Shown here: positions 5,448-55,550 of the stretch, piece after piece
Position numbering within the stretch: the stretch's first letter is position 1
Layout of the letters: each line of letters begins with the position of its first letter
Source of the DNA: Nymphaea colorata
Taxonomy: Eukaryota; Streptophyta; Magnoliopsida; Nymphaeales; Nymphaeaceae
Direction: 5' to 3'
DNA: 64,000 nucleotides
NCBI RefSeq assembly: GCF_008831285.2
Contig: NC_045141.1
Span: forward strand, 16,850,106 to 16,914,105
Program-made: the position numbers and the translations under genes
The notes under the pieces: generated by a model
What the model was told of the DNA's origin: nothing
Database searches by the model: none
The model's input: the letters and a program-made list of their open reading frames with translations, nothing else

Positions 5448-6959
5448 TTCACTGTGACTCTTAGGTGCAAAGAAATCGTTGTAACTCCTGGTACAGCAGT
5501 CTAACCATCGTCTTGAAGCTTCACTAACAAGTACATTTTCTTTGGTTCTCACATTGCCCCAAAAATTACATAAAAAGTGTGTCTGTCATCTTAGAGATCT
5601 TTCGATCTTCTCGTCTGTGTTCTTTCTTTCTTCCTATGAATTAACACGATTTTGTTGCGGACAAGCAAAACAGCTGCAGCAAGTTCATGAGAAAAGTATG
5701 TAAGCTTTCAACTCTTCACCGAAAGAGTTATCCAAGTCTTTAAGTTTTGGAGGAAAACAGCAAAAACTTCTCACTGCACTAGACCAGGAAAGAGAAAAAT
5801 GAAACAAAATTTTAAATTCAAAGGGCATTGTGAAGCGATAATGAGGCAAAGACAAGTGCATCTCATGCCAGAGAAATAAGGCCTGAGGGTGTATACAGAA
5901 ATAGATCTTATAGGAAAGGAAGCAAGCACAATACGATTGTCCAGTTCACAGGTAGTGTAATGGTGGCAATTACTTGTGCACTCAAGGTTCGTTCTCAAGT
6001 TCCTACTTCCTAGTCTTATTTTGTCAGCAACAAGGAGTACAACTTCTTCAGGACCTATGATTCTCAAGATCATCCTTTTTAACTGCCAAATGCTTAGGCT
6101 CCACACTTACCACTCCTCTTAGGAAGCACAAGAAGTAGAAAGAAGCTGGGCTACTTACAATATTTTGGACGTTTGCTTCTCCTACTAATGGAAACCTTTG
6201 CAGCATTTTATTCCTAGACAATGAAGACCACCTCAGGTCCCATTGATGCAACTGCGATCAAATAACCGAACATTGGTCCCACTTGTTCCTGAAAAATAGA
6301 CCGGCAAAAGAAGTAGTTCTTATGCGCCTTGCCGCCAATTACCTATGAGGGAAGTTGTCGATATCCAGCGCGAATAGCCATGGTGTAATGTTTTTTTCTT
6401 TCGTCCCCCCACCCCCCACACAACACCCTTTTCTTTTTCTTTTTTTTAACAGACGTTTCCCACTTCCAATCAAGCTGAAAGTGGTGATCGAAAAGAAAAG
6501 GTAGCCCTGATATGGTGAGTCCACTAATTGGACCTTCTTCTGGATCTAGAATCCAGCTAGGCTTACCTTTAGGGGTCAGCTCCAGAACACTATGGTGGCA
6601 CTATTACCATGAAGATACAGGAGTGTCAGCAGCTGGAAATGGAAGGCATGCATATTACTCGGGAAGCAGGAGAAAGCTGAGAAAAGGGGAATAGAAGTTA
6701 CACACACCAGGGCCAACGAAAATAATATCATGCTATAGAGCTATGCCAGAACAAACTCAAAAACCTTAAGTTGTAGCTGGACTGAACAGGTGTCCTCAAA
6801 ACCAAAAGGAAGAAACAAATCGAGCATATCATGAACTTGATCGTCAGCAAAACCCAAATCAACATAAGAAACAATTATAGAATTCATCCTAAGCTCTCCC
6901 ACAGCACCAAAGAGTAAAGAAAGAGGCAATTCATCGAGAAATTTCGCATCAAGATAAGA
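5448..6959 (-). other. Likely 5' leader / leader intron of RNL-A
   Basis: The TATA-containing module that resembles the promoters of the other RPW8 genes lies at about 7.1 kb, roughly 1.7 kb above the RNL-A start codon. In RNL-C and the RPW8-only gene at 33 kb it is only about 115-200 bp away. A long 5' UTR, probably with an intron, would explain this, but I cannot fix its splice sites. No coding domain is recognisable here. Confidence 0.35.
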
Positions 6960-7200
6960 GCAGAAACACACCTAAACGGACGTCAACAATTTGCAGCAAC
7001 TGAACGGGTCCTCTTCGTATTTGCAGCTCCTCCTAACTTTCCAAGGCGGGACCCCGAGAGAGAGAGAGAGAAGCAAGCAATTCCTCCCTGCACATCGATG
7101 GATGTTTCCTGTTGTTCAGCGAATATATAATCTTTAAGACCAGGTTGAAGGAATTTCCTCGAAGTGTAGTGCACAGCGCACTAAACATTTCTGAGATCGA
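6960..7200 (-). promoter_or_regulatory. RNL-A promoter and leader module
   Basis: On the minus strand there is a TATA box (TTATATATTC, 7121-7130), then a CT-rich run (7056-7072 reads as GA repeats on +), then the leader block TTTAGGTGTGTTTCTGC near 6975. The same leader block occurs in front of the RPW8-only genes at 33.5 and 45.7 kb, and TATA boxes in similar surroundings precede RNL-B, RNL-C and the 25-kb RPW8 remnant. This conservation is the reason for calling it a promoter; the start of transcription is inferred. Confidence 0.5.
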
Positions 7201-8022
7201 CAATGGAGAAAGCAAACAGGAAAACCCAGTCGACGAAGAAAAAAGTTGCCGTGGCCTGCCGAATTGTCTTGACTTATTGGCTGGCTAGAAAAAAGAAATG
7301 CGAAAGCCTTTGGAGGGAAGGCGCGTGGAAGGGAGGAAACGTTCAAGAAATCCACCTAACGGCCTTCATTTTCCAGTTTTGTTCTGAAAATAATATTTTA
7401 AAAAATAAGAATAAATCAGAAAAATAGTTAATATTTTAAGATGTATCGGTTAAAATTATCTCGTGTTTGCGGTTTATATTCAGTGGCCGAATTGAGAGCC
7501 ATTCTGACGACATTGACTCCAAACTCGGCTACGCTTGTGTTCAGCCTCATCTCTACCGTACAGATGATGTTTATTTAACATGTCAAGCGTACGTTACAAG
7601 CTGACTTAGTAAATTAATGGGAACTGGTGGTGAGCGACAATGAAAAATAATTAGTATATCTAAGACAATTTGGGTTGTGGACGAAAGAAAACATTTAAGA
7701 ATACATGGTTCAATGCAATTCTTTTGTCTCATATGTCTTGTAGATGTGACCTTAGAAGTAATTTAGCAGGACAGGAAGTTAACGCGTATCAAGTCGCCAC
7801 AATGACTCCCACGACACCGAAAGTTTGCTGGAAAAATAAACCAGAGCACAAAATACGTAAATAAAGAAAGTAAAAAAGAGAGGTTTTTTTCTTTCTAATA
7901 ATTATAAAAGACAACATAAAAGGTTTTCTAAGGATTATGGATCAAGGCTTTTATATGGGTTGAAGATAGAAATGATGAACATCGCCAAAATCACACCTGG
8001 TTCTTTTGGGCATCCACATCCA

Positions 8023-8300
8023 AGAGTGAGCTTAATTTACAAGGTTTATCATTTGCTACTTCCTCCAAGCAGAGATTGGTTACTTAACACGTTGTTTGAC
8101 AGCAGCATGAGTGTCCCATGAATATGTCCCAAAGATCGGGTAGATTCATATAACATTATTCGAGAGTGAGTTTAATTTCCAAAGTTTATCATTTGCTACT
8201 TCCTCCAAGCATAGATTAGCTACTTACGAGGTCGTTTGGCAGCAGTATGAGTCCTCCATGAATCTACGCCAAAGATCCGGCAAATTCATATAACACTTGA
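8023..8300. repeat. Two diverged ~143-bp tandem copies
   Basis: The sequence beginning near 8023 (gagtgagcttaattt...) recurs from about 8165 with scattered substitutions. Both copies contain tttatcatttgctacttcc and end in an attcatataaca motif. A third, weaker copy of the distal half may follow near 8400. It occupies the space where the lost 3' half of RNL-B would lie. Confidence 0.6.
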
Positions 8301-8497
8301 ACTAGTATTCTATAAATCAGCTCGAACTTTGATAACTAGTGTTTTATGAATTTGCTCAAAATACTCACAGAGTATCCTTCTTACCAAATGGTTTCTAAAG
8401 AGTTGTTTGATAATAGTAACACATTGTTATTGTCTCATGAATCTACCACAAAGAATGAGAGAGGTTTGAAAAACACTATAACAAGAGTTCCATGAGG

Positions 8498-8606
8498 CAG
8501 ATTAATGGGCAATAACTATGTGTGACTGTTGCCAAATGGTTTCAACGCTCAGCAGATTAATGGGCAATAACTATGTGTGACTGTTGCCAAATGGTTTCAA
8601 CGCTCA
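8498..8606. repeat. Perfect 55-bp tandem duplication
   Basis: The block 8498-8552 (starting cagattaatgggcaataac) is repeated immediately at 8553-8606 without visible mismatch. The identity indicates a recent duplication, in contrast with the diverged neighbours upstream. Confidence 0.85.
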
Positions 8607-9077
8607 AGCTAGTAGATCAGCTTGGCTAATCATCCAAACCCATGATGTGTTGAAGAGCTTTACAGACCAGAAGCAATTGTTCCACCCGAATCAGTCACTA
8701 AAGACGTTCTAAGGGGTCCATATTCACACTGGTTTTCCAAAGATGCTAGTTTGTTATGGAAAAGCGGGCTTCTCCCAACTTGGCGGAACATTTGGACAAC
8801 TAGAAATGATGTGTTCTGTTATCAATAGCGTCTTAGTCGAAAACTTTTGTGATGTGCTTCCATCATACAATGGATGAACTGTATCTATTGAACACTGCTC
8901 TATCTATTTCGAGTTTACACTTTACAGTGACATTCTGTCATTATATTTTGTTGTTGCCTTAACATCTTGTTAGGGGACCTCTCTCTCATATCGTCTATGA
9001 ATTTTCCGTGACAGGAATTAAGTCACTTAAGAATCAGAAAGGAATCTGCTTAAATCAATCTTCCTCTTCTGCATCTT

Positions 9078-11326
9078 CTACCTTGTTCTCCAAGTAAGAT
9101 TAAGCAAATGTTTCTCCGAAAGTTCAAAAAGTTTGAGAAAGGCCTTTTTCTCCGTTAGGTGGTATAGTTCAACCCACATGTCTATGATGGAAGCTGCAGG
9201 CAACCTTTTATCTTCAGGAAAGGAACCAATATCCAGAAAACAGTCCCGGAGCTGCTGGCACAGGAAGTCTATTGTGGTAGAGAAAACGCGGAATAGATCT
9301 TCCTCGCTTTTATAAATGTCACCTTTATTTTGCAGGTCTTCTGCAATACCGTCCCATTTTTCAATGGGTTCACCGTTTAGCCTTCCTCCTATATGTTCTA
9401 GTGCCAGTGGTAGTCCATCGCATCTTTTGATTATCTGCAAAAATAATCATATGACCTGATGATTAGAAAATGCCATCATATATTACTCAGCACATTCGCA
9501 TGCTTAGTAGAAAATATTTGAGTGGAGTGAGAGTATGACACTAGGCTCTGTTTTTCAGGAGAAAACCTTGTTAGGTTACTCTATTATAAGTATATAGTGG
9601 AACTCTGTAGTGTTAAGAATCTGCCGGAATCAACAATTCAAATAGACTCGGAAGCAAATAGAAAACCTTGTTAGGTATATTATAATTATATGCAGAGTCT
9701 ATTCATTTTAGGTTTTTAAAACCAAGTCAACTGAATTGCTGAATCGGCCAGGGGCAGCCTAAGCCATTCGATTCATTCTCATTTTTACAACAGGGCAAAT
9801 ACCAACTCAATCTCTACAATCTCTAATAAGTATCAATTGCATCCAACACAAGTTGGCAAAAATAGATTAAAAACTTGGACTCGGGTAGATAAAAGCAGTT
9901 GATCATACCATAAAAAGCGGGCAGGTAAATAGGAAAATGAATACCTGCTCTGCTGCCATGGTGTAAACCGGTGATGTTTTTCCCGCTGCATGATAGAATA
10001 ACTGCTTTGCTGCCTCCTTTTCCAGCTTTGGCAATGGATAAATTTCATCCACTATATTCTTTTTCATCTTTTCTCTAGAGATGACGATGGTTTTTAGACG
10101 CTCTGTCCTAAACAAGAGATTCTTCAGATCCTTCTCAGACCAAACATCATCTAAGACAATCAAACGATTCCCAGAGCACTTAATTTGCTGCTCACTCAGC
10201 CCATGCGCTATCTGCCTCACAGCATCTTTTACGTCTTCAAACCTGGGCACCTCTCCACCAAGCAACTGAGACCATATTCTTTTGAGAATGTCCAGTGTAT
10301 CTGGCGATCTCGAAACCGTGAAATAGAAGATATTCTTACCGAACGAGCCTGACAACAGCCGACCCAGTAGACAAGTGAGGAACCAGTATTTGACAGGTTC
10401 TATTCCACTATAGAGGGATGAAGAATTTAAAATTGTGGCACATATATATATTTGAAGTTATTTTAATCATAAAAAAAATTCAGACTGCTACGTGTACTGT
10501 ATAGTGTATGTCAGCCAAAGCTTGTGTTAGTCCAAGATCAACTATCTAAATGCACGCAAAATTGATGGTTAAAATCATCGTTTTAATTTACAAAATAACT
10601 GCAATCACGATTTACCGAAGAAAGTTAGGAAACACAAATTTCTTTTCAAAACAATGAATTCACCTTGAACGTCAAATCTGTGAGACAGACAAAAAGGAGG
10701 AACGTCATTGAGCAATAGAAGTGAAAGGCACCTGTGATATCTGGGTCCCTGCAGAGGCTGTTCACCAAGGTGGTCTTTCCGGAACCCCCCATCCCACAAA
10801 CGCCAACCACCTGATGCTTCTTCAATATCTCTTTCAGCTCATTCAGAGGCGTCACTATCCCAAAGACCTTACCAGGGAGAGGAGGCAGAGCAGCAACAGA
10901 ACCTCCTGACATAATTCCAGTCACCTCGTCTCCTCCCAGCAACTTATCCAACTTGGAATTTATTTCCCCCATCCTCGAGCTCAGAGCCAAAACCCCCATC
11001 AAAGTCGCAGTCCGTCTGCTTTCCTGAATCGCTTCTTCTAGCTCTTGCAGCCGCCTGGAGTAGTCGACGTGCTTGCGGACGTTCCAGCAGGAAACTTGGG
11101 CACATTCGCTTATGAGATCTCCGCCCCTTGTCATCTCGCTGCACAGAGCCTCCAGCTCCGGATTCGTCGAAAGTTTGTCCAGTACTGGTCTTAACCCTTT
11201 CAACGCTCTTCCAAGCCGTTTGTAATGCTCTTTAAACTCACTATGTTGCCCAGCCACTCGTTGGATTACATTCCACAACTCTTGTGCTGCAACGCCAGCA
11301 AATGCACCAGCAAAAATTTCCGCCAT
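9078..11326 (-). CDS. RNL-B: truncated RPW8-NB-ARC protein lacking MHD motif and LRRs, 451 aa
   Basis: Exons 11326-10732, 10348-9945 and 9434-9078 carry the same first two intron positions and phases (1, 0) as RNL-A and RNL-C. Start is the ATG at 11326 (MAEIFAGAFAGV). The RPW8 domain occupies roughly residues 1-150. NB-ARC motifs are complete up to RNBS-D: P-loop GMGGSGKTT (178-186), kinase 2 LIVLDDVW (261-268), GLPLAL (340-345), CFLDIGSFPED (398-408). The third exon still carries a donor-like AG/GTAGAA at the position where its relatives splice (after 9082), but reading through it gives an immediate TAG at 9080-9078. No QHD exon or LRR exon follows. It could be a working short RN protein, possibly a modulator of full-length RNLs, or a 3'-truncated pseudogene. 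The intact frame over three exons favours recent or ongoing constraint. Confidence 0.8.
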
Positions 11327-19745: not shown

Positions 19746-19910
19746 CCTATAGACAACGACCAAGAATCAATGAATAAAAGACGATTCCAAGTTACAAACT
19801 ATCCCTGCAGAAATGCCAAGGTCACTTCTTCCATTGCCTACAGACAACGACCAACAATCACGATTCCAAGTTACAAACTATCCATGCAGAAATCTCAAGT
19901 TTATTTCCTC
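19746..19910. repeat. 91-bp duplication spanning the RNL-C stop codon
   Basis: The segment from 19746 (cctatagacaacgaccaa...) is repeated from 19837 with an 11-bp deletion. The second copy contains the RNL-C stop codon and last codons; the first lies in the presumed 3' UTR. Confidence 0.75.
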
Positions 19911-22900
19911 TCTGCGCACTTCTAGCTTACTGGGGTCGAATCCACAAGAAATCCACAGTGAAGCAACTTCCTCATCACAAACCACCTTCTTCAAACGTTC
20001 CATTTGCACCAGAGAAGGAGGCAGGTCCATGATGCTTGAGCAGGATCTCATGTCAATCTTCTCCAGGCTGCTCAGTTTTCCTATTTCTTCAGGAAAAACA
20101 CCCAAACTATAACAGTTTGAGATATCCAAGAACCTGAGTTCTGAGAGTTGGCTCACCGAGTGCGGTAAGCGTTCCAATGTCCCGCAGGCCTGCAATCGCA
20201 GGACTTTCAATTTTCTCAGTTTATCAATGCTCTCTGGCAGACTAAGCAAGTCAGGGAAATTGGTTATGCTTAACTTCTCCAGACTGGAAATGTGGCAGAT
20301 GGTATCCGGCAATTCATCCAAGTCAGTGCAGTAATCTATTTCCAGATCCCTGACACTTGGAAACAATGAAGGGATGTGCAGTAGATGGCGAACGTCACAG
20401 AGGACTAGTGAAAGCTTATGCAGATCCTGAGGCTGCACAGGGGAAGCACCTGTTATTATGGAAGTGACAGTTTCTCTAAACTTCCACACTCTGGACCACA
20501 ATAGGGATCCTTCTTCCACCATCCGCAGTGGCTCAGCGGGCAGTGATATCTTTCTAAACATTACCCTCTTTAGTTTATTTAAAGAAGACAATAGGAAGAG
20601 TCCATCGAGTTCTGCACGGTTGGAACCATGATTGGCAACAACCAGAACTTTGAGATTCTTCATATTTTGCAGGAATGGTGGTAAGAAGTAGGAAGTTGCT
20701 GAGTCGAAGTTGAGGATGAGGACTTCAGCATTAGGTAGGTCTAGATCTGGCCAGTCCCATCTTTTCATTTCCCCTGCACCGAAACCAGAGAAACGGCAAT
20801 GTTCAGAACCCCATCACCAGAACCACTCACATGGGAGCACCGCATGTGTTGCAGTGAAACGAGTTCAATGTAGTCCTGGGCCAATATTAAGTTTAGTTGC
20901 AGAGTCATGGTGATTACCAGTGTTTATCGAGGCAAGCGTTACTTGGCTGGTTCGATTCTTTTCCCGCGTCCAAGTATCTGGGATGTTGCCCTCTTTCTTT
21001 TCCATGATCAGCCTCGTATTATTCTGGCTCGCATCTTTCTTTTTCATCTCGAGGATGGTCAATTCTCTCAGTACATCGTGCTGACATACAGAGAGACTAC
21101 TTATACTCCCATCTGGATCTCCAGCAGCACCACTGAAAGATTAATTTGTCATCAGTTACGTAGCAAGTCAAGTGGATCAAGTTTTAGTAGCATAACGCTA
21201 AAATTGCTCCATGGCTGAAATATATAATGATACGGCACCACCAGGTTTTATGTAGAGCGATTCCTGAGAACCAGCTCCTTGAATCAGGGTATCAAAATTG
21301 TAACCAGAACCAATTTTAGAAAGAAAGAGGGAAAGATCCCTACAGAGTTCAGGTACACTTTGCTTTCTGCAATTTTGTTCTTTTGCTGCAAAGGTGGTCA
21401 GGGGGAGGCAAATCCCTGCTCAAACACTTAAGAATTGACGACTCAATGAAAAAAGGATTTTGTAAGTAATAAATTCATAGCATAAATATAAACCTAAAAC
21501 TTGTTTCGGGAAATTTTCATACCATTTTCTGTCAACGAGTTTGACAAGATTTCTTCGGCCTAGTTCTCGAAGAATCACGTAAGCGCGATTCTCATCCATG
21601 TCACGTGTTTCAGTCCACATGTCTATGATTGCGCTCGCAGGGATCCTCTGGTCTTCCGGAAAAGAGCCGAAGTCCAAGAAGCACTCGCGTTCTTCCTCCG
21701 TCAACGGTGTAAGACTGGTGGAGAAGCATTCCGTGATTATCTTTTCCATGATCCCACCAGTCTGTTCAAGTCTATTCGCTGTATCTTGCCACTCCCTCCC
21801 GTCTTTCTTCGCCAAAGAGCCTCCTATCAGCTCCAATGCTAGAGGGTGAAGCTTGCATCCTCTCACTATCTGCAGAAATGGGAAAAAGTGCTTCACAAGG
21901 AGAAGAAGATGGAGTTTTTTGTTTCTTTCTATTGAGGCTGGGCATGCTGATGCAAAATATACCTTGTCTATTAGGTCCTTATTTGGCTTCCAGGATCTTT
22001 CAGGGTCGACTCCATTGAAAGCATGGTGCTCAAATAGTTTTCTAGCATCATCCTCTCTCAGCAAGTTCATAGTGTGACACCAATCACATACACTATCGAG
22101 TTCAGTTCTTGATGTTATGAGAATTTTGGAACCTTTTGCACCCTTGATTGCTGACACCAGATCCCTGATGATGCCCTCGTCGTCGATCCAAACATCATCC
22201 AAGACTATTAGCACCTTCTCCGTTCTTCCCCTCAGACAAGATGCAAGCTCGTTGATTGCATCCCGTTGGTTCACGAATGTGCCAACATTTACATGCAACT
22301 TCTCAAGTAGTCCTCGACAGATCCTTTCCAGATCAGGCGAGTGAGAAACCGATTGAAAGATGAGTTTCTCGTATTCATCTGGAGGAGATGAAAGGGAAAA
22401 AAAATTTTAAAAAGGGAAATAATTACCCAATTTTGTCTTAATTAAATGCTAATTACTGATATTAAATAAAAACAAAAATTGTCAAAGGTGGATGTCGGGG
22501 CCGGGCCGGGGGTGCATGCTGTCGCTGTTCCAAAGGTGGCTGTTTGCTCTAGCATAGGTTTGTGGCAACGATGGAACTTAGCTAGACTCGGAAGGGAAGC
22601 ATACAAACACAATGACAAACGAAGGGAACGTGATTGAGCAACGGAAGGCGGAAAGTACCTTTGATATCTGCTTCCCTGCAGAGCTTGTTCGCCAAGGTGG
22701 TCTTTCCGCACCCACCAATCCCACAAACGCAGACCACCCGATGCGTCCTCAATCTCCTCTTCACCTCCCCCAGAGGCTCCTCTATCCCAAACACCTCTGC
22801 AGGGAGAGGAGGCAAAGCAGCAGCAGCAACAGAACCTCCCCCACCTACCACCTTTTCCAAGTTGCAGTTCATTGCCTTGATGCTCGATTTCACTTCCAGA

Positions 22901-23238
22901 ACCACCCCCAGCGTCTCGGCCCCTATGAATCCCTGAATCGTTTTTTCTAGCTCTTCCAGTCCCTTGGAGTAGATGGCTCGCTTGAGGGGGTTCCAGTGGC
23001 GAACTTGGGAACACTTGCTTATGAGAACTCTGCCCCTTTCCATCTCACGGAGCAGATCCTCAGCCACTGTCTCCCTCGACGTCTGTTGGTCGAGCATTAC
23101 TCGTAATCTTCCCCACAGTATCTCCAGCCGCTTGTACTGCTGTTGGAACTCGGAAGGAGCGCCCGCCAACTTTTTCAATAACTCCCACACCTGTTGTGCG
23201 GCAACGCCGGCAGCAGCCCCGATCACAATTTCTGCCAT
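19878..23238 (-). CDS. RNL-C: intact RPW8-NB-ARC-LRR helper-type NLR, 5 exons, 817 aa
   Basis: Exons 23238-22659, 22378-21963, 21869-21523, 21132-20918 and 20773-19878 join with phases 1, 0, 2, 1 and total 2454 nt. The ATG at 23238 gives MAEIVIGAAAGVAAQ, an RPW8 start; the longer upstream frame reads through promoter sequence. Motifs: P-loop GIGGCGKTT (173-181), kinase 2 VLIVLDDVW (249-257), CFLDFGSFPED (395-405), QHD (465-467). LRRs run from about 520 to the end (EEINLRFLHG), with repeated L-x-x-LP-x-x-(I/V) units. Two oddities: the usual GLPLAL is KLHPLAL (338-344), and exon 2 begins DEYEKLIFQSV instead of the GKFGEIVFLTV type seen in RNL-A. It is probably active given the clean frame, but the altered GLPL loop could change nucleotide handling. 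Confidence 0.92.
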
Positions 23239-24674: not shown

Positions 24675-25132
24675 CTAGCTTCTACCGTCTCCTTCTCCGA
24701 CACTTGCTGCTGGATCAGAGGGAGAGGAGCAGACAAAGCAGCAAAAGAACCTCCTCATTCCGCCCACTTCGCCTCTTTTCAGCATCTTATCCATCTTGCA
24801 GTTTGTTTCCCTCATATTCGTACTCAGTTCCTCAATCTGCCTCTGCATTTCCGCCTGTACGAATCTTCGAATCGCTTCTTCTAGCTCCCTTAGCCGCCTG
24901 GAGTACCTTCTTTGCTTGGAAACGTTCCAGCGGGGAACTTGGGCACACTTGCTTATGAGCTCTCCGCCCTTCCTTAGCTCGTAGACCAGAGCGTCATCCT
25001 TCAATTCGGCCGCCTGTCTGTCCAGAATCTTGCCAACTCTTTCTCAAGCCGCTGGTACTGCTCTCTAAACCTACCTGGGCGAGCTGCTAGGTCTTTGACT
25101 ATTGCCAACAACAGTTCCGCGGCAACGGCACT
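24675..25132 (-). pseudogene. RPW8-only gene remnant, frameshifted and 5'-truncated
   Basis: The minus strand first reads an RPW8 N-terminal region without its start (LLLAIVKDLAARPGRFREQY, then QRLEKELA). It shifts frame near 25.03 kb and continues as ILDRQAAELKDDALVYELRK down to the tail MRRFFCCFVCSSPSDP and a stop at 24675. Compared with the intact genes at 33 and 45 kb, the first dozen codons and a few bases around the frameshift are missing. The tail family is the same (RFF-C-F-CSSPS). A promoter module is still present at 25.35 kb. Confidence 0.75.
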
Positions 25133-31359: not shown

Positions 31360-33560
31360 TTCAATGAGTCGAGACAACATGGGCTTGACTCGAACTCGAC
31401 TTGAACTGAGTTCGAGTCGAGAAATGAAGTCATTCATGATTTGACTTTTTTGAACTGGATTAACTTTGAGAGTCGTGATGATAATATATATAACATGCTT
31501 CATAGCTGTTTCACAAAGTAAAGATAGTCCAAGTTGGTTTTTCATCTTGATTCAAGCTTAATTGAGCTCAGTTCAAACTTTTAAGCTTGATCTGAGTCTA
31601 ACACTAACTAGTCAACTTGAGTTTGAGTCGAACTTGTTCTATGGCTTGGCCCAAATTGATGAGAAGAACCTCGGGTATGATAAAACCTTTACGAAAGCAT
31701 TTTGGCGGACGATTCTTTTCTATACCTATAAAATTTGGCCAAAAAAGGGGTTCTTTTCTAATCATTGGCTGGCCGGTTGTGAAGAAGGTTTTCTTTACAG
31801 ATTCTAAAGGGTCAGCACAACTTCTTCTCGAGTCAACCGAAAGTTAGGATTAGTTTCTGTGGCACTTGTCTATAAAAGTAAAAGTAGGCTCCTAAGAAAT
31901 ATAAAGATTTCAATCAAGTTCATAAGATTCTAATTAACAGGAGCACCCGTTTCACATCTCTCCATACAAGTGAAAGCACATTAATTCTGTTTTGGCGGAA
32001 TTATGATATTCCACCTATTGCTTTTTAGTATGATAAAAAAGGATATTGTTTTTTGTGTTTGTGTGAAAGCTACATTTTCATCGTTACTGCCAAAGAAAAT
32101 ATTTCGTTGCCCTTACAAACAAAAACGTCTTACCTATTTTTTTTTTCAAGTTACATTTGTATCCAATTAGCTACTGTTGTTTGTTTTAGAATTGCTAAGT
32201 TAGAGAAACTATAGTTTTTTATGGAAACTATGGCCTTTACAAAAAAACAAAAATCACAATGTGATCCCTCTTTTTAAAAATATAGGCAAAAGATAGGCCC
32301 ACAAGAAGAAAAGTCCCTTTGTTTCTCCGGCCGCTCAAACTTCCAAACCTTACATTATTTAGAAAACGGTCGAAATTATAAATGGCATGTGAAATAAGAA
32401 TCGCTAGGTCTGGATGAAAGATAAGTCGAGAGTCAAAGAAACATTGTGTAAAGCTTTTCTTTTCAAAGTTTTAGCTATATACCCAGGATTGCCTTGTTTT
32501 GGAACCAATAAAACTAACTTCCAATCAAATGACCTGTCTAGTCACGAATCAAGAATGAATGAGTCGAATCTCGAGTCATCAGGTTTTAAAACACTGCAGA
32601 TAACAGCTTGTAACAACAGATATAAACACCCAAAGATGCAATGCAGAAAAATGTTCTTTTCTACGGTCAATTCACTCTTGCTCACTTCAGAATTCTTGGC
32701 TCTTGAATATCCTCCTTGATTCGTGCTCTTTCTATATAGAGGGAACGACGGCGTTCAAAATAGATTAGTGAAAGGGAGAGACTTTTGGAAATAAATGAGA
32801 CCAAGAGAGGGCTCCATGCCTCTTGGTTTTCGAAATGGAAAAACATATGCAATGGAAAAATTTTAAGACTTGGTCAAGAATTAATTTTCATTAGAAGAAG
32901 CACAACAGATCTTCGGCACACTCCCTTGGTACTTAAAACATAATATTGAAAATCAAAACGAAGTCCTCCTAACCTCCCATAACTTGCTTTGCCATCACTA
33001 CATGGCTTTAAATAAAACAAAGACTGCCAGACAAGGTGGCATTCACTACAGAATCACATTAACTGCAAAACTGGCTTTAACTGTGTTCCCCTCGATCCCT
33101 TTCAGCTGGATCAGAGGGAGAGGAGCAGGCAAAGCAGCGAAAGAACCTCCTGATTCCACTCTTCTTTGACGTGAGTTCCTCAAGCTTCTTCAGTGTATGC
33201 ATCCGTACGAATCGGTCAATCTCTTCATCTAGCTTCTTTAAGCGCTTGGAGTACTTCTTTTGCTTGAGGAAGTTCCAGCGGGAAACTTTACCACACTTTT
33301 CTGTGAGCTCTCTGCCCCTCCTTAGCACGTCATTCAATTCGGCCGGCGGCACTCTGGCCAGAATGGGTTCCAAACATGCCAAGTCTTGCTGAAGCCGCTG
33401 GTACTGCTCTCTAAACCTACCCGGTTGAGTAGCGAGGCCTCTGACTATTTCCCACAACTGTTGGAAGACAACGCCAACAGCTACGTCAACCAATGCCATC
33501 TTCTTGGCCGGTTTCAAATCGCCGACAGGTTTGCAGAAACACACCTAAATGGATGCTCCT
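31360..33560. repeat. Segmental duplication A1 (pairs with 43.45-45.74 kb)
   Basis: Colinear with 43.45-45.74 kb: shared blocks include gaactgagttcgagtcgagaa, attcttttctatacctataa, gcttttcttttcaaagtttta, and agggctccatg near the RPW8-only genes. It carries the RPW8-only gene at 33.1-33.5 kb. The partner has a solo LTR inserted where this copy is continuous. Confidence 0.8.
33077..33499 (-). CDS. RPW8-only protein with Cys-rich basic tail, 140 aa
   Basis: Single exon. The ATG at 33499 gives MALVDVAVGVVFQQLWEIV; a 15-codon extension upstream would start at GTG and is not used. The protein is an RPW8 domain: hydrophobic N-terminal helix, then RFREQYQRLQQDLACLEPIL, a basic KCGKVSRWNFLKQKKYSKRL stretch, and amphipathic helices. 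It ends in SGIRRFFRCFACSSPSDP plus a charged tail. There is no NB-ARC. Size and architecture resemble Arabidopsis RPW8.1/RPW8.2, which act at membranes in powdery mildew resistance. The Arg/Phe/Cys tail could be a membrane-anchoring or S-acylated region (inference). The promoter module sits about 200 bp upstream. Confidence 0.85.
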   Translation of the reverse strand: MALVDVAVGVVFQQLWEIVRGLATQPGRFREQYQRLQQDLACLEPILARVPPAELNDVLRRGRELTEKCGKVSRWNFLKQKKYSKRLKKLDEEIDRFVRMHTLKKLEELTSKKSGIRRFFRCFACSSPSDPAERDRGEHS

Positions 33561-33639
33561 GAAAAACAAACAATATTGATCAGCACCTGAACAGCCCTCT
33601 ACTTCCTTTTCACAGCTGCTCAATGGAACCTTCAAAGTC

Positions 33640-43801: not shown

Positions 43802-44125
43802 TGTTAGGAACAACACACAAAACTCTCTTTTCGCACTCTCAAGAGGAGGATAGAAGCAACAAAGAAGAAGACAAAGATTTACGTGGTTCGGAGCAATAAT
43901 CTTCTACGTCCACGGTCGCACAGATCTTTCACTATTCACTCTCAGATGAACACAAACACTATAAGGGAGAAGACCAAAAAAGATACTGCGGCCCCCCTCA
44001 CAACATAAGAATTAGGACAAACCCGCATTTATACAAAATGACATAAATGCCTTTACATAAGAAAATATTCTATATGCGGTATTGCATATGAGTGTTTAGT
44101 ATGGATCAAGTTCCATACACCAACA
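43802..44125. mobile_element. Solo LTR or TRIM-like insertion, 324 bp
   Basis: It begins TGTTAGGAACAACA and ends ATACACCAACA, the TG...CA form of Copia-type LTRs. Inside is tttacgtggttcgga, a phrase I recognise from plant LTR elements. Flanks gaaga and aaaga form a near 5-bp target duplication. The paralogous segment at about 31.69-31.71 kb has no such sequence. Confidence 0.7.
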
Positions 44126-45205
44126 AAAGATTCTTTTCTATACCTATAAAAGCGACATTTTCATCGTAACTGCCAAACAAAATCTTTCGTGGACCTTACA
44201 AACAAAAACATGTTAGCTGATTCTTTTTCTTTTTTTTTTTCAAGTTACATTTGTATTCAATTAGCTGGTGTTTTTTGTTTTAGAATTGCTAAGTTAGAGA
44301 AAGCATAGTTTTTATGGAAACTGTGGCCTTTACAAAAAAAATTTGCACAATGTGATCCCTAATTTTAAAAATATAGGCAAAAGATAGGCCCACAAGAAGA
44401 AAAGTCGCTTATTTCTCCGTCCGCTGAAACTTCCAAGTCTTACATTATTTAGAAAACGGTCGAAATTATGAATGGCATGTTAAATAAGAATCGCTAGGTC
44501 AGAATGAAAGATAAGTCGACAGTCATAGAAACATTATTTAAAGCTTTTCTTTTCAAAGTTTTACCTATATACTCAGGATTGCCTTGTTTTGGAACCAATA
44601 AAATTAACTTCTGAATCAAATGACCTGTCGAATCACGAGTCAAGAATGAATGAGTCGAATCTCGACAAAAGATGCAATGCAGAAGAATGTTATTTTCTAC
44701 GGTCAAGTCACTCTTGTTTACTTCAGAATTATTGGCTCTTGAATCACCTCCTTGGTTGGTGCTCTTTCTATATCGAGGGAACGACGGCTTTCAAAGTAGA
44801 TTAATGAAAGGGAGAGACTTTTGGAAATAAAGAGACCAAAGAGAGGGCTCCATGTCTCTTGGTTTTCTCTGGCAATCATGGAAATGGAAAAACATATGCA
44901 ATGGAAAAATTTTAAGACTTGGACAAGACTTATTTTTCATTAGAAGAAGCACAACAGATCTTCGGCACACTCCCTTGGTACCCCAAGACCACTAGTTTTT
45001 TAAGACCCCAATACCATCCACTTATCGCTGATAACTTCTCTCGTGATGGGCCATTATCGCCATAACCTCCCACACACAACTTGCTTTGCCATCACACTAC
45101 ATGGCTTTAAATAAAACAAAGACTGCCAGACAAGGTGGCACTCACTACAGAATCACATTAAATACGAACCAGTACTAACGAATTTACCCACATGCAAAAC
45201 TGGCT

Positions 45206-45658
45206 TTAACTGTGTTCCCCTCGATCCCTTTCAGCTGGATCAGAGGGAGAGGAGCAGGCAAAGCAGCGGAAGAACCTCCTGATTCCACCCACTTCGTTCT
45301 TCTTCGACGCCAGGATCTTCAGCGTCAGGATATTTACGAGTCGGTCAATTTCTTCTTGTAGCTTCTTTAGCCGCCTGGAGTACTTCTTTTGCTTGAGGAA
45401 GTTCCAGCGGGAAACATGGGCACACTTGCTTATGAGCTCTTCGCCCTTCCTTAGCTCGCAGACCAAAGCTTCATCCTTCAATTCGGCCGGCGAAAGTTTT
45501 TCCAGAATGGGCTTCAAATTTGCCAAGTATCGCTCAAACCGCTGGCACTGCTCTCTTAACCTGCCGGGTTGAGTAGCGACGTCTCTGACCATTTCCCACA
45601 ACCGTTCTAAGATAGCGCCAGCACCTATCTCAGCCGTAACTGCCTCAATCAATACCAT
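45206..45658 (-). CDS. RPW8-only protein with Cys-rich basic tail, 150 aa
   Basis: Single exon. The ATG at 45658 gives MVLIEAVTAEIGAGAILERL; the upstream in-frame extension would begin at GTG and was not chosen. It has an RPW8 domain with RLREQCQRFERYLANLKPIL and a basic KCAHVSRWNFLKQKKYSRRL segment. The tail is VGGIRRFFRCFACSSPSDP plus ERDRGEHS, identical at its end to the 33-kb paralogue. NB-ARC is absent. The duplicated TATA module of its sisters is missing upstream and is replaced by unrelated sequence from about 45.77 kb, so expression may differ. Confidence 0.85.
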   Translation of the reverse strand: MVLIEAVTAEIGAGAILERLWEMVRDVATQPGRLREQCQRFERYLANLKPILEKLSPAELKDEALVCELRKGEELISKCAHVSRWNFLKQKKYSRRLKKLQEEIDRLVNILTLKILASKKNEVGGIRRFFRCFACSSPSDPAERDRGEHS

Positions 45659-45769
45659 GTTCTTCGTCTGTTCCGAATCGCTGGCAGGTTTGCGGAAACA
45701 CACCTAAATGGATGCTCCTGAAAAACAAACAATATTGATCAGCACATGAACTGCCCTCTACTTCCTTTT

Positions 45770-47040
45770 TAGCTTGAAGATATTGAACCAAAGGTCTAGT
45801 TTTGAAGTATGTGGTCTCGAACGTAAGTGAAGACATTGCAGGAGTTTATTCGATCCCTGAAACATGTTTGGTATGTCAAAATTGGCCGAATTCAGCCTCT
45901 GTCTTTGAGAGAGAGAGAGCACTTAAAACGAGTGGGGAGCCAGATTCAGGGAAGGCAGTTTCATTGCCGTAGAGCTGCCCGTTCAATTTCCGCCTCCGCC
46001 CCTCGGTTCGATTCCAACCAATGGAATTATCAAAATCGAACCATGCACCGACGGTCTCGCATGAGGGCGTCCCCAAAACACCATTTACAAAAACAAGTAA
46101 ATGAGACCAGAAGAAGTGTAATTACTCGACTCCCTTTGTCTTCTTAACGTGGCGGCATCTCTCGAGGAAGAATGAAATGAAGCAGTTCCCTGGTTGGCCA
46201 GAAAAGGAGCGAAGCAAACTTTATAGGTCGGGATTTATATGCGAACAAAGAAATTTCATTGTGGACGCAAGTCGTGTGCGGGGAAGGTAGAGGGCGCTTT
46301 CCTGGAATTTTTTTGGCAGCAGCAACGTGAACAACCCGAACGACCAATGTGGAGGTCGGGGTCCGCCCTACTCGTCTGGGCCCCTGTGCCAGCTTCTCAC
46401 GTGTCTTCTCGATGGTTGCAGCTCCCCCGTGTCATTGACTGCAAACTGTTCTTCTGCGCTTCTGCTCTTTATTATTGATAAACAAACCATAATGACTAAC
46501 ATATTTTTGATAAGTTCTACAAGATTCCTCACAATTTTAAATATAAAATTAAATTTTTGTGGTGTTACAATCTAACTTCTTTACACCATATTTGGATGAA
46601 GTAAGAAATGAATGGAAAGGGAAGCTTCAATTGTGTTTGGATAACTAATTAAATGAAAAAAAATGAAAATTTGTGTTTGGAAGCAAAGGAAAAGAAAGAG
46701 GAGGGACAAAAAGGGAAAAAAACTTAGTATATTTTCAATCTCTTTTGAAATGAAGAGATTAGAAAGGAAAAAAAAAAGTTGTTTGTTTTTCTTACCGTTT
46801 GGCCCTGGTGCTCGCTCCTTACATTTTGTTACAACTTGGAGGGTATACAAGCTAGCAAACTGTCTTATTTCTCTATTGTATTGTAGGTAACTAAGGCAGT
46901 GCCTCGTCTACCTCTCTAAGGGAAGGCTGCCTCGCCTTTATATGTCTGTGAGTGCCTTGTTCTTTGCACTAGAGACGCAGCAGGCTGCCTCGCCCAAGTC
47001 TATCATAGGGAGGGCTCGATGGCCCCCCTTTCCATTAGAG
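45770..47040. other. Unassigned region upstream of the 45-kb RPW8-only gene
   Basis: A relatively GC-rich stretch (45.89-46.45 kb) has GA repeats and several overlapping open frames, none with a known domain. It might provide the new promoter of the RPW8-only gene or belong to a decayed gene. 46.58-46.85 kb is A/T homopolymer-rich. Confidence 0.35.
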
Positions 47041-47370
47041 ATGTCAACAAATCGGATTCGGATCAGATATACATTTTATCATATCCGATTTTTTAGATAT
47101 TCATATGTTTGGATTCAGATTAGGATTCGAATTTGGATGAAAAAAAAGTTTATACCATATCTGAATGCAACTTTAAAATCTACATTCAAATCCGATTTTT
47201 TTGTTATACTGAATCTGATCTAAATCTGAATTTTAAGTTATATCCAAATCCGATCGAAATCCAATTTTAAAGTTATACCTGAATCTGATCTGAATCTGAA
47301 TTCTAAGTTATATATGAATCCGAACCGAAACCAACTTTTAAATTATATCCGAATCTACGTTTTAAAGTTG
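47040..47370. repeat. Degenerate short-period repeat ('aatctgaatttt')
   Basis: Phrases such as atccgaatctgaattttaag and gttatat(c/a) recur irregularly every 50 bp or so. A shorter relative lies at 11.7-11.8 kb. Confidence 0.55.
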
Positions 47371-48110
47371 TGACCTATGAATGGTTGAACAAAAGGTTTA
47401 ATCAAATGCACCAACTTAAAGTCATGACATAAGAAGAATATAAATTGTATATGAATATATAATTTGATTAAGAGATAATGGCTTTCATAAAGTTGCATAT
47501 AATAATAACCAAATAGTTACCATATACACCATTTAACTTAAAGTATTTAAAATTATATCACATAAAATTAATTAATTAATAATTCGTATTGTATTTAATT
47601 AAACATTTTTGTGTAAACAAGCAAAACTATTATAGTTAAGACATCAGCTAAACAGGATATCTTAAATAATGTATTTATTTAATTAAAAATAAAAAAAACT
47701 TGTATCAAGAAATTTCAATAAAATGAGTTTTTTTTTAAATATGAAAATTGATCACAAATAAATATATTTAATATGAAACAACAGTTGAACTCATAAAAGG
47801 GTTTTATTTATCAAATTATCAATTATTTATTTAATCAATCAAGTAAATTATTTTGTATAATCATATAATATGTCAAAAAATCTTAGGTATTTGATACATA
47901 ACACATAATTCACAAATTCAAAAATAAAAACCAGCAAACATGAAAACTGACATTGCTATCTTGGTCTTCGACATGAAAGCTAACTACCTTTTTAAAGGAG
48001 AAATATGTCCAGAGCGTCGTACGTCCTCATATTCTACCTTCACAAAAGACGATAGAACATATGATAAATGATTGCTTTATAATATTAGTGTAGTACGTCC
48101 TCATATTATA
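47371..48110. other. AT-rich intergenic
   Basis: Nothing identifiable. Confidence 0.5.
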
Positions 48111-48114
48111 TATA

Positions 48115-48790
48115 TATGTAAAATGGAAAGCTACATGACCATTATGATGGTTAAAACCGCTATATGATAACGATTGCTTTGTAATGGTTGTATGTATATG
48201 TAAAATGGAAAGCTCATAGATTTTAAGTTAAGTATTATCGTTAAATAAGGTTGTGCATGATGATAAGAAAATTGAAACCATGAATATACATTTTTTTCAT
48301 TATTCAAAGCCATCAAACACAAAAAGTTGTTTTTTTCTTTCTAATTTGAAACAATGCTAGAAAATAAATATTGCAAAGAACCCGTGTCATAAAATTTCTT
48401 GGTGGATACTATGGAGTATTTGAGTTTGTTATATTTTTTATTAAAAATAAAAGGGTTAAGATAAGTATAACATAATTTTTTTAAAAAAGAGACATGTGGC
48501 ACTCTTGAATCAAGTGATCAATAATGTGCTTGGCTTCAATTAGCTTTCACCTCTGCAAGGTGAAAATGACTCCTCTGGTAGGCATAAAAGATTTTTGTAA
48601 AATTTATTTAGTTATTTAATTTGTCATGGCGGACGCCCTTCATGAAAAAGATCTTATAATCCCCGGGAACAAGCTTTAAGTCTTTATATTTCTCAGGGGA
48701 GCCTAATTTTATGGACAAGTGTGGAGGAAAGTATTTGTTGTTAACTTTTGTTAAAAAGTTTGGTTGTTGTGTACATTTCACAGAATTTCG
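48115..48790 (-). repeat. Dispersed repeat, inverted partner of 14.86-15.49 kb
   Basis: Reverse-complement relation to 14860-15490 over at least 600 bp with moderate divergence (ggttgtgcatgatgataaga, atgtggcactcttgaatcaa, atggacaagtgtggaggaaa). Confidence 0.65.
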
Positions 48791-53724: not shown

Positions 53725-55386
53725 TTAAGCAGGCAGAAGAGGATTAAGTACATGACCAACAAATAGCAGAACCCCTGTTAGTTCTTCTCGTATTAGAAAC
53801 AAAAATGGATGATCAGCAACGAAGTCTACAGGTGGTCGTGGGGCAGACCGAGTGCTTACCACAGCACCAGTTGCCGAAGCAGCTTCAGTTCCTTCTTCAT
53901 TAACCTCAATAAAGGATTTGTGGAATACGCCGGATACAAACAATTTATTTCCCAAAGGCAAATCAACCATCTCAGTAAGTTCAGCTTGCTCAGAGAAGGG
54001 CAAAAACAGCCCCATCTGCTTGAGAACCTCAGAAGCTTCAAAATCATGAGAAATTTTGAACTTAGGAATCATGAACTGACCAACACTAACTTGGTTTGAA
54101 GGAAGATGCCTATTTATGAAATCCAGCTCTGAACCAATTTTTTCTACCAGATTATGCAGCCCATTTCTCTCATCAGGAAGGAAAAAATACATGGAGAAAA
54201 GCCTCTTATCCTCGCCTTGTCCATAAGGCAACTTGAGTACTTTGAAACCAGGAAAAGCAGCAATAAACTGCTCCTTCGAGCTAGTCATAAACATGACTTG
54301 TACAGATTCCCCGCTCAGAGGATAGAAAGAGCCTTCTTCGGTAACAGATGCATCAAACTCGTCTTTCCAAGCGCCCTTAAAGTAAAGTGCACTGGCAAGG
54401 ATAAGCCTAGTAGAATTGTCAACCGAGCCAGACGGAAGAAGTTCTTTAATAAGTCCATTAGTCTGGCCTTCCGCCCATAAGTTCACTTCATTTTTTACTT
54501 CAGTTGGCTGCATGTATACAAGCATAAAGTTACATGATAAGAATTCCATCAACTAAATTGGCTTTGTCACCAAACTTCAGGACAAGGAAATTTTCATTTC
54601 TACAGAGTGCCAATAGAACATCATGAGTAAATAACCAACGATTGATTTTCACAGTGATAAATTTGGAGAAATATGGTGCGCTATTTCCTCAGACAATCAA
54701 CAGTTTATTACTATTTTTCACTATGGTGCGATAAATGGTTTAGCCACTAATCACTATTATTCAGGTTCTAGAAAGTGTCTTCAATAAGAAAACTAAAACT
54801 AAGGCATGCATGCAGTACTGGATATTCAAAAGATCCAGTCACTCATCCTTTCCAGCATTCTATTAGTCATTCCCCAAAATGCTCTTGGCTCACTCAAGGT
54901 TATGTTCCAGCGGATACTTCCACGAATGACAGGGTCCATACTCTAGCTTATGGAGAAATACGAAGACCTGAAGTTCACGCTTAGAAAGTGGCTCACCTTC
55001 GTCTGAAAATCGACGGCCTTGGCTTCTGCTTCATAGACGTCCTTCACGATCTCCGCGAAGGCCGGCTTCAACGGCATGGATTCGTCGACCCAGATGCCGT
55101 TTGCAGAGTATAGCGTCGGACCTCCAAGAGTGCTCCCGTCGGCGAGAATCAGGGAAACGATCTTGGCAGAGAGCGAGTTGAGCTCCTCGTTGGTTGTCGC
55201 CCTCAGGAACGACAGTATCTGATCATTAGTCCGTCCTGTCGATCCAGCGGCCACCATGGAAAGGGCGATGTGGACGGTGAGGGGGGAGAAGACGAAGTTG
55301 ACTTCCCTCGCTTCGCTGATGGCAATGTGGCTCGCCAGGAGCAAGCTTGACTCTGTCTGCCTTTGGATTGAGTCGCGGAGATCCAT
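53725..55386 (-). CDS. Plant serpin (serpin-ZX type), 2 exons, 390 aa
   Basis: Exons 55386-54997 (ATG at 55386, MDLRDSIQRQTESSL) and 54507-53725, phase-0 intron with GTGAGC donor and TGCAG acceptor. 390 residues is the usual length. Visible hallmarks: NFVFSPLTVHIALSM, NEVNLWAEGQTNGLIKELLP, LILASALYFKG, hinge NEEGTEAASATGAV, and C-terminal DFVADHPFLFLIREE. Counting from the hinge Gly as P15, the reactive-centre bond is Arg-Ser (VVSTR/S), pointing to trypsin-like or metacaspase/papain-like targets as known for LR-type plant serpins. There is no signal peptide, so it is probably cytosolic. A TATA box lies 165 bp upstream. Two decayed serpin fragments upstream show an older tandem family. Confidence 0.93.
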
Positions 55387-55550
55387 CGGCCCCTCTTCCT
55401 GCCGTCTCTTCTTCTTCTCTGCAGTGAGGAAGAATCGCAGAAAACCAAGAGGATGAGAGGAGCTGGAAGAGGAACTTCCAACAGATGGGAACAGCTTGAG
55501 GCTGCTTACAAAATCATTGAATGTGGTGTGGATTTAAACTCTCATTTCCG

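Follow-up and report, generated by a model that had tools for sequence, protein, structure and literature searches.

The C-terminal tails of RPW8-only genes in a Nymphaea colorata immune cluster are RNL linker DNA read in another frame

In some tandem clusters of plant immune genes, RPW8-non-NBS genes are found beside RPW8-NBS genes, and fission has been proposed to account for them (Zhong and Cheng, 2016; PMC5039405). The RPW8-only proteins of that study were inferred from their domain make-up to have split off receptors, and work on conifers also names RPW8-only proteins (PMC6691002). In Arabidopsis, the activity of RPW8.1, RPW8.2 and HR is influenced by their variable C-terminal part, a short tail included (PMC6684095, 2019). 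The making of a C-terminal motif by a frameshift in a duplicated plant gene has been described for the euAP3 motif of the APETALA3 MADS proteins (Kramer et al., 2006; PMC1513400). Among the open-licence papers listed in literature searches, no title or abstract opening tells of an RPW8-only tail that arose by frameshift, and neither "frameshift" nor "frame shift" occurs in the main text of PMC5039405.

The window analyzed here is a stretch of 64,000 nucleotides (C4:16850106-16914105, contig NC_045141.1) from the 408-Mb genome of Nymphaea colorata, and its genes are those of a plant immune cluster. Its minus strand carries the RPW8 ORFs of three RNLs (A, B, and C), two intact RPW8-only ORFs (P1 and P2) and a broken RPW8 copy (R; Table 1). 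P1, P2, and R all score above the PF05659 cut-off of 30.4 bits and in this respect belong to the RPW8-only class. P1 and P2 are not RNLs, which combine RPW8, NB-ARC, and LRR: their ORFs are closed by a stop codon and, in the genes as read from unspliced ORFs, both NB-ARC and LRR are missing. A PF05659 search of the whole genome listed 20 matches, 10 on C3, 9 on C4 and 1 on C9. Loci compared from outside the window were RNL-D (L002), RNL-E (L003), RPW8 remnants, the C3 RNLs, a C9 locus (L004) with two RNL starts, F1 and F2, and a third P-like copy, P3 (L001), which is interrupted by a run of N.

Table 1. Features of the window, with positions counted from its first base.
Feature	Position	Strand	Evidence
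P1, intact RPW8-only ORF, 140 aa from ATG	33077..33499	-	translation; PF05659 49.3 bits
P1 tail IRRFFRCFACSSPSDPAERDRGEHS and stop, RNL linker DNA in the other frame	33077..33154	-	translation, alignment, shuffles, nhmmer
P1 relic of first NB-ARC codons, CCTCTGATCCAGCTGAAAGGGAT	33095..33117	-	nhmmer; shuffle test 2/2000
P2, intact RPW8-only ORF, 150 aa from ATG	45206..45658	-	translation; PF05659 50.6 bits
P2 tail and stop, 77/78 bases identical to P1	45206..45283	-	alignment
P2 relic of first NB-ARC codons	45224..45246	-	nhmmer E 3.9e-8 for linker and relic, 3.8-kb target set
R, RPW8-only remnant with P1/P2-type tail, RPW8 frame broken upstream	24675..25043	-	tblastn in two frames; PF05659 53.6 bits
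R tail MRRFFCCFVCSSPSDPAASVGEGDGRS and stop	24675..24758	-	translation; nhmmer 1.4e-14
RNL-B ORF: RPW8, linker, NB-ARC start	10646..11326	-	translation, Pfam, tblastn
RNL-B five bases absent from R, P1, P2; exact placement ambiguous	10909..10913	-	alignment
RNL-B linker region as originally placed, in-frame GGSVAALPPLP	10868..10915	-	translation
RNL-C ORF: RPW8, linker, NB-ARC start	22582..23238	-	translation, Pfam, tblastn
RNL-C NB-ARC and LRR ORFs after first ORF	19878-22406		
RNL-C linker region as originally placed, in-frame GGSVAAAALPPLP	22795..22850	-	translation
18-base core	B 10889-10906; C 22822-22839; R 24737-24754; P1 33133-33150; P2 45262-45279	-	

Among solved structures, the best match for the first ORFs of RNL-B and RNL-A was At5g66900 (8yl6), an NRG1; for the NB-ARC of RNL-C, it came close behind the RPW8 protein of 8zf0. 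The RNLs differ in completeness. RNL-B (5600-11326) has NB-ARC exons, and no LRR was found downstream of it (best match E 0.12). RNL-D (614-1507 of L002) is broken at the P-loop, and a search of the next 4.5 kb found no later NB-ARC exon; it is a second truncation of an RNL. Identity between RNL-C (19878-23238) and the C9 copy varies by exon, at 41% for the first exon and 43% for NB-ARC exon 2 compared with 84% for NB-ARC exon 3 and 78% for the main LRR exon, a pattern that may reflect either uneven evolution or a chimera. The minus strand of the window also holds two serpin ORFs (53725-55530), which together span most of the Pfam serpin model.

The original prediction held that the tails of the RPW8-only proteins are the RPW8-to-NB-ARC linker of the RNLs in another frame. 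Alignment of tail with linker DNA bears this out: the two are homologous and their frames differ, as seen in an 18-base core, in shuffles and in an nhmmer profile. The core, GGAGGTTCT(G/T)(C/T)(C/T)GCTGCT, is common to RNL-B, RNL-C, R, P1, and P2. The linker DNA reads GGSVAA(AA)LPPLP in RNLs B, C, and D, IRRFFRCFACSSPSDP in P1 and P2, and MRRFFCCFVCSSPSDP in R. The tail peptides are those predicted (RRFFRCFACSSPSDP in P1 and P2, RRFFCCFVCSSPSDP in R), although the P1 tail with its stop is slightly shorter than had been given. Similarly, a single linker peptide, GGSVAALPPLP, had been assigned to both RNL-B and RNL-C; it is found in RNL-B, whereas RNL-C has a form of its own (Table 1). Translation of RNL-C in the other frame yields GRFCCCCCFASSP, as expected, and the tail peptide, when used as a query, hit P1, P2, and R, three places in all. 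The tails of P1, P2, and R are thus confirmed as the linker DNA of neighboring NRG1-like RNLs in another frame. In the P-type frame, RNL-B and RNL-D read FCCCSASSPW and then a stop, which indicates that GCT codons, once read as TGC, by themselves make the peptide rich in Cys. The Cys residues of the tails are therefore largely an automatic product of (GCT)n Ala codons in the shifted frame, and the tail was apparently lengthened by later changes.

The change of frame can be located. The size gap at the switch between RNL-B and R, predicted at about five bases, is exactly five: these bases are present in RNL-B and RNL-D and missing from R, P1, and P2 (junction readings GGAATTATGTCAGGAGG in B, GGAATTAGGTCAGGAGG in D, GGAATCAGGAGG in P1 and P2, and GGAATGAGGAGG in R), and the frames differ because the three RPW8-only copies are shorter by this amount. 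The tails therefore have the marks of a frameshift-born C-terminus, since their DNA is homologous to paralogue coding DNA in another frame and the indel is identifiable. The linkers of the E and C9 copies are shorter yet remain in the RNL frame, which suggests that the junction stretch is prone to indels. A 48-base in-frame stretch before the linker is found in R, RNL-B, RNL-D, F1, and F2 and is absent from P1 and P2, RNLs C and E being partly shorter in this region; its retention places R closer to the parent form than P1 and P2.

A small indel had been proposed both to convert an Ala/Pro linker into an Arg/Phe/Cys tail and to detach RPW8 from NB-ARC. Five bases do account for the frame, but they were not the sole cause of the detachment, because a 24-base stretch is missing as well, as is all of the sequence from the P-loop on, and the 3′ flank common to R, P1, and P2 yielded no NB-ARC. 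The absence of NB-ARC from the P-loop onward extends to all three copies; a tblastn search for NB-ARC or LRR remnants downstream of them, with exons of RNL-E and the C9 RNL as queries (E 1e-3), found none but those belonging to RNLs C, B, and A. The split involved sequence loss together with the five-base change and, given the common flank, most likely predates the duplication that separated R from P1 and P2. As the sequences show, the five-base difference from RNL-B and RNL-D just before the linker shifts the linker frame, 24 bases at the linker/NB-ARC border are absent from P1 and P2, NB-ARC is gone from the P-loop on, and the GCT-rich Ala/Pro linker reads as an Arg/Phe/Cys tail that closes the protein. 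A piece of the flank of the RPW8-only unit, devoid of the RPW8 domain, lies 5′ of RNL-E (3896-4396 of L019). Elsewhere on C4, 1.1-1.4 Mb away, are inverted pairs of broken P1-like RPW8 copies (L005 and L006); these remnants end before the tail and are uninformative for its comparison, and the matches at L017 and L018 are weak and stop-containing.

Evidence for the direction of the change comes from the sequence downstream of the tail core and from a tree. A nucleotide profile built from six RNL linkers and the NB-ARC start was run with nhmmer against a target set of 3,804 bases; it matched R (1.4e-14), P2 (3.9e-8), and P1 (1.9e-5), and gave no match when P1 was reverse-complemented. The alignment of the profile to P1 and P2 spans a 24-base gap, corresponding to an in-frame GKVFGIEK or similar in the RNLs, and runs as far as GGGAT within the first NB-ARC codons; the P1/P2 stretch listed in Table 1 aligns with the RNL DNA for PL(I/T/N)ELK onward, where the RNLs encode PLxELKGM or similar. 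When the P1 sequence after the tail core was tested alone, 2 of 2,000 shuffles reached the observed score. P1 and P2 thus hold a relic of the first NB-ARC codons. The profile match of R ends at the linker, and its sequence after the core showed no NB-ARC homology in the single-sequence test, where 1,395 of 2,000 shuffles did as well. A tree of 14 RPW8 rows (R and F2 as partial rows) places R, P1, and P2 in one clade with support of 83/86, which is moderate and below the tool's starred level, and a fork at 100/100 unites them with C, F1, F2, B, D, and E, the forks among these neighbors being partly unresolved. Each of the remaining 11 rows, the C9 and C3 copies included, joins RPW8 to an NB-ARC start. 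By parsimony, the relic and the tree make the RNL the ancestral form, and the polarity that had earlier been inferred is now supported. P1, P2, and R very probably descend from one RPW8-only gene, itself derived from an NRG1-like RNL of this gene group, and we infer a single split before duplication.

Two other accounts of the likeness between tail and linker can be weighed against this reading. The likeness could be due to chance or to low-complexity GCT/CCT repeats, for the linker does contain runs of GCT and CCT and, with up to two mismatches, the degenerate 18-mer matches the genome 234 times, compared with 122 times for a backwards control pattern, so that only exact matches are telling. 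These number just six in the 408-Mb genome, against an expectation of about 0.1 if the four bases were equally frequent, and all six are RPW8/RNL loci (the sixth being RNL-D); in the five window loci, moreover, the core lies at the same site 3′ of the RPW8 domain. The 45-base tails reached best scores of 42-47 against the six RNL linkers, where the shuffle mean was near 19, and for each of the three tails none of 2,000 dinucleotide shuffles scored as high. The exact matches and the shuffles rule chance out, leaving it practically no probability. Homology being accepted, the direction might be reversed, such that a Cys-tailed RPW8-only gene came first and an insertion with fusion to NB-ARC turned its tail into the RNL linker. 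Nothing beyond the symmetry of the indel speaks for this order, although R is of RNL-like length and intermediates can be read both ways. It is opposed by the relic of NB-ARC codons downstream of the frame change in P1 and P2, by the 11 other tree rows with RPW8 joined to an NB-ARC start, and by the report of RPW8-NBS-LRR genes from moss on (PMC5039405). On the strength of the relic and the tree, we reject the reverse order as highly improbable.

Whether the tail was kept for its own sake is a separate matter. The retention of the tail in two intact copies had been read as a sign of selection, but the case for this is weak, as the near-identity of P1 and P2 runs 78 bases past the stop and the tail is open in R even though R is broken. 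P1 and P2 are identical at 265/343 bases of the body, 77/78 of the tail with its stop and 865/968 of the 3′ flank (Fisher, tail vs. flank 0.0047; tail vs. body 5e-7), and of 891 windows of 78 bases taken wholly from the flank, 5 show as little divergence as the tail. The next 78 bases past the stop differ at 2/78 positions compared with 1/78 in the tail (Fisher 1.0), and the two segments, taken as one, differ less than the remainder of the flank does (Fisher 1.3e-4). The quiet block is thus not confined to the peptide, and its pattern suggests recent exchange between the copies or UTR constraint. Codon counts in the tail, where the sites are too few, likewise do not demonstrate selection: over 25 codons, P1 and P2 differ by 0 nonsynonymous and 1 synonymous change, while P1 and R differ by 11 nonsynonymous and 3 synonymous changes (dN/dS 1.10), and all three differences in the first 16 codons are nonsynonymous. 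As R is broken, its changes may have arisen after its death. In the body, dN/dS comes to 1.13 between P1 and P2, ranges over 0.95-1.70 among RNLs B, C, D, and E, and lies at 0.66-0.82 for these against F1. The RPW8 body differs more between P1 and P2 (78/343) than does the 3′ flank (103/968; Fisher 9e-8; regions compared, 32050-33620 and 44120-45790), which may reflect diversifying selection or a mosaic origin. P2 and its upstream DNA (45493-48647) match P3, just outside the window, at 99.8% of 3,157 aligned bases, as a result of recent duplication or of an assembly duplicate.

It is fairly probable that the tail, its origin being the same, is a neutral by-product, an open out-of-frame read-through in young copies that are drifting or are kept for RPW8 alone. 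Its openness in the broken R, the P1-R ratio with the all-nonsynonymous early differences, the body dN/dS of P1-P2, the extension of the quiet block past the stop and the origin of the Cys residues from (GCT)n are all consistent with this. Several observations pull the other way: the tail is quieter than the flank taken as a whole and than most flank windows, the sole P1-P2 change in it is synonymous in the tail frame, R and P1 differ at 3/48 bases in the first 16 tail codons compared with 63/216 in the body codons compared, and the P1-P2 body indels are both 15 bases long, hence in frame, whereas 1 of 11 flank indels (terminal gap excluded) is divisible by three. The in-frame indels favor P1 and P2 as present or past coding genes. 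From the sequences, we think it rather probable that P1 and P2 serve some RPW8-only protein function, while a function of the tail itself appears doubtful.

An AlphaFold model with six window sequences as input predicts helices at residues 3-28, 34-54, 63-81, and 87-124 (mean pLDDT 62.8) and a disordered tail with pLDDT below 50. Fold searches with this low-confidence model returned unrelated helical bundles, with no RNL or RPW8 chain among the best 50 matches listed in each search, and phmmer found no significant match for P2 among solved structures (best E 0.2; At5g04720 0.32). By analogy with Arabidopsis RPW8/HR, the products of P1 and P2 could work at membranes as free helical bundles of the RPW8/CC_R type. 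Positively charged residues of α4 bind phospholipids in a membrane-binding study of NRG1, ADR1, and NRC (PMC10410763). The predicted α4 has eight Lys and Arg residues in each of P1, P2, and R, three to five in the sister RNLs B, C, D, E, and F1 (F2 not counted), and five to seven in RNLs A and G7-G10; a basic α4 is therefore not special to the RPW8-only copies, because RNLs A and G8-G10 are about as basic as P1 and P2. Such a helix, possibly with the basic-aromatic-Cys tail as a second anchor, could aid membrane attachment. That the linker frameshift in one step gave a membrane anchor of this kind and freed the RPW8 bundle from NB-ARC control, as a new kind of immune executor or regulator that stands alone next to the NRG1-like receptors it came from, is a further possibility that we regard as unlikely. 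If the anchor reading were true, GCT-rich Ala linkers would be latent Cys anchors in another frame, and a functional tail would explain a step in membrane targeting.

In comparison with known systems, the NRG1-type RNL helper NLRs (PDB 8yl6, At5g66900) are the likely source family, from which P1 and P2 differ in having neither NB-ARC nor LRR. Arabidopsis RPW8/HR and P1/P2 are both short RPW8/CC_R proteins; the C-terminus of the former has 14- or 21-residue repeats (PMC6684095), whereas that of P1 and P2 is a Cys/Phe/Arg tail, and direct reading of their translations revealed no repeats of this RPW8.1/HR4 type. The euAP3 motif resembles the tail of P1, P2, and R in being a new C-terminus from a frameshift, but it has been assigned to around the base of the core eudicots and reportedly evolves as coding sequence (Kramer et al., 2006; PMC1513400), whereas the tail is known from one genome and three loci and came with the loss of the downstream domains. 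The RPW8-only genes of Zhong and Cheng (2016) are alike in lying beside RPW8-NBS genes and in their proposed fission origin. The passages of that paper drawn on here give no molecular junction (PMC5039405); in Nymphaea colorata, the junction can be read, together with the frame change, the NB-ARC relic and a broken R of RNL-like length. The locus thus offers a testable case of an immune receptor domain that became a stand-alone protein, with a new C-terminus born from a linker. Fission and frameshift-born C-termini are each known; what this locus adds is the occurrence of both in one lineage at a readable junction.
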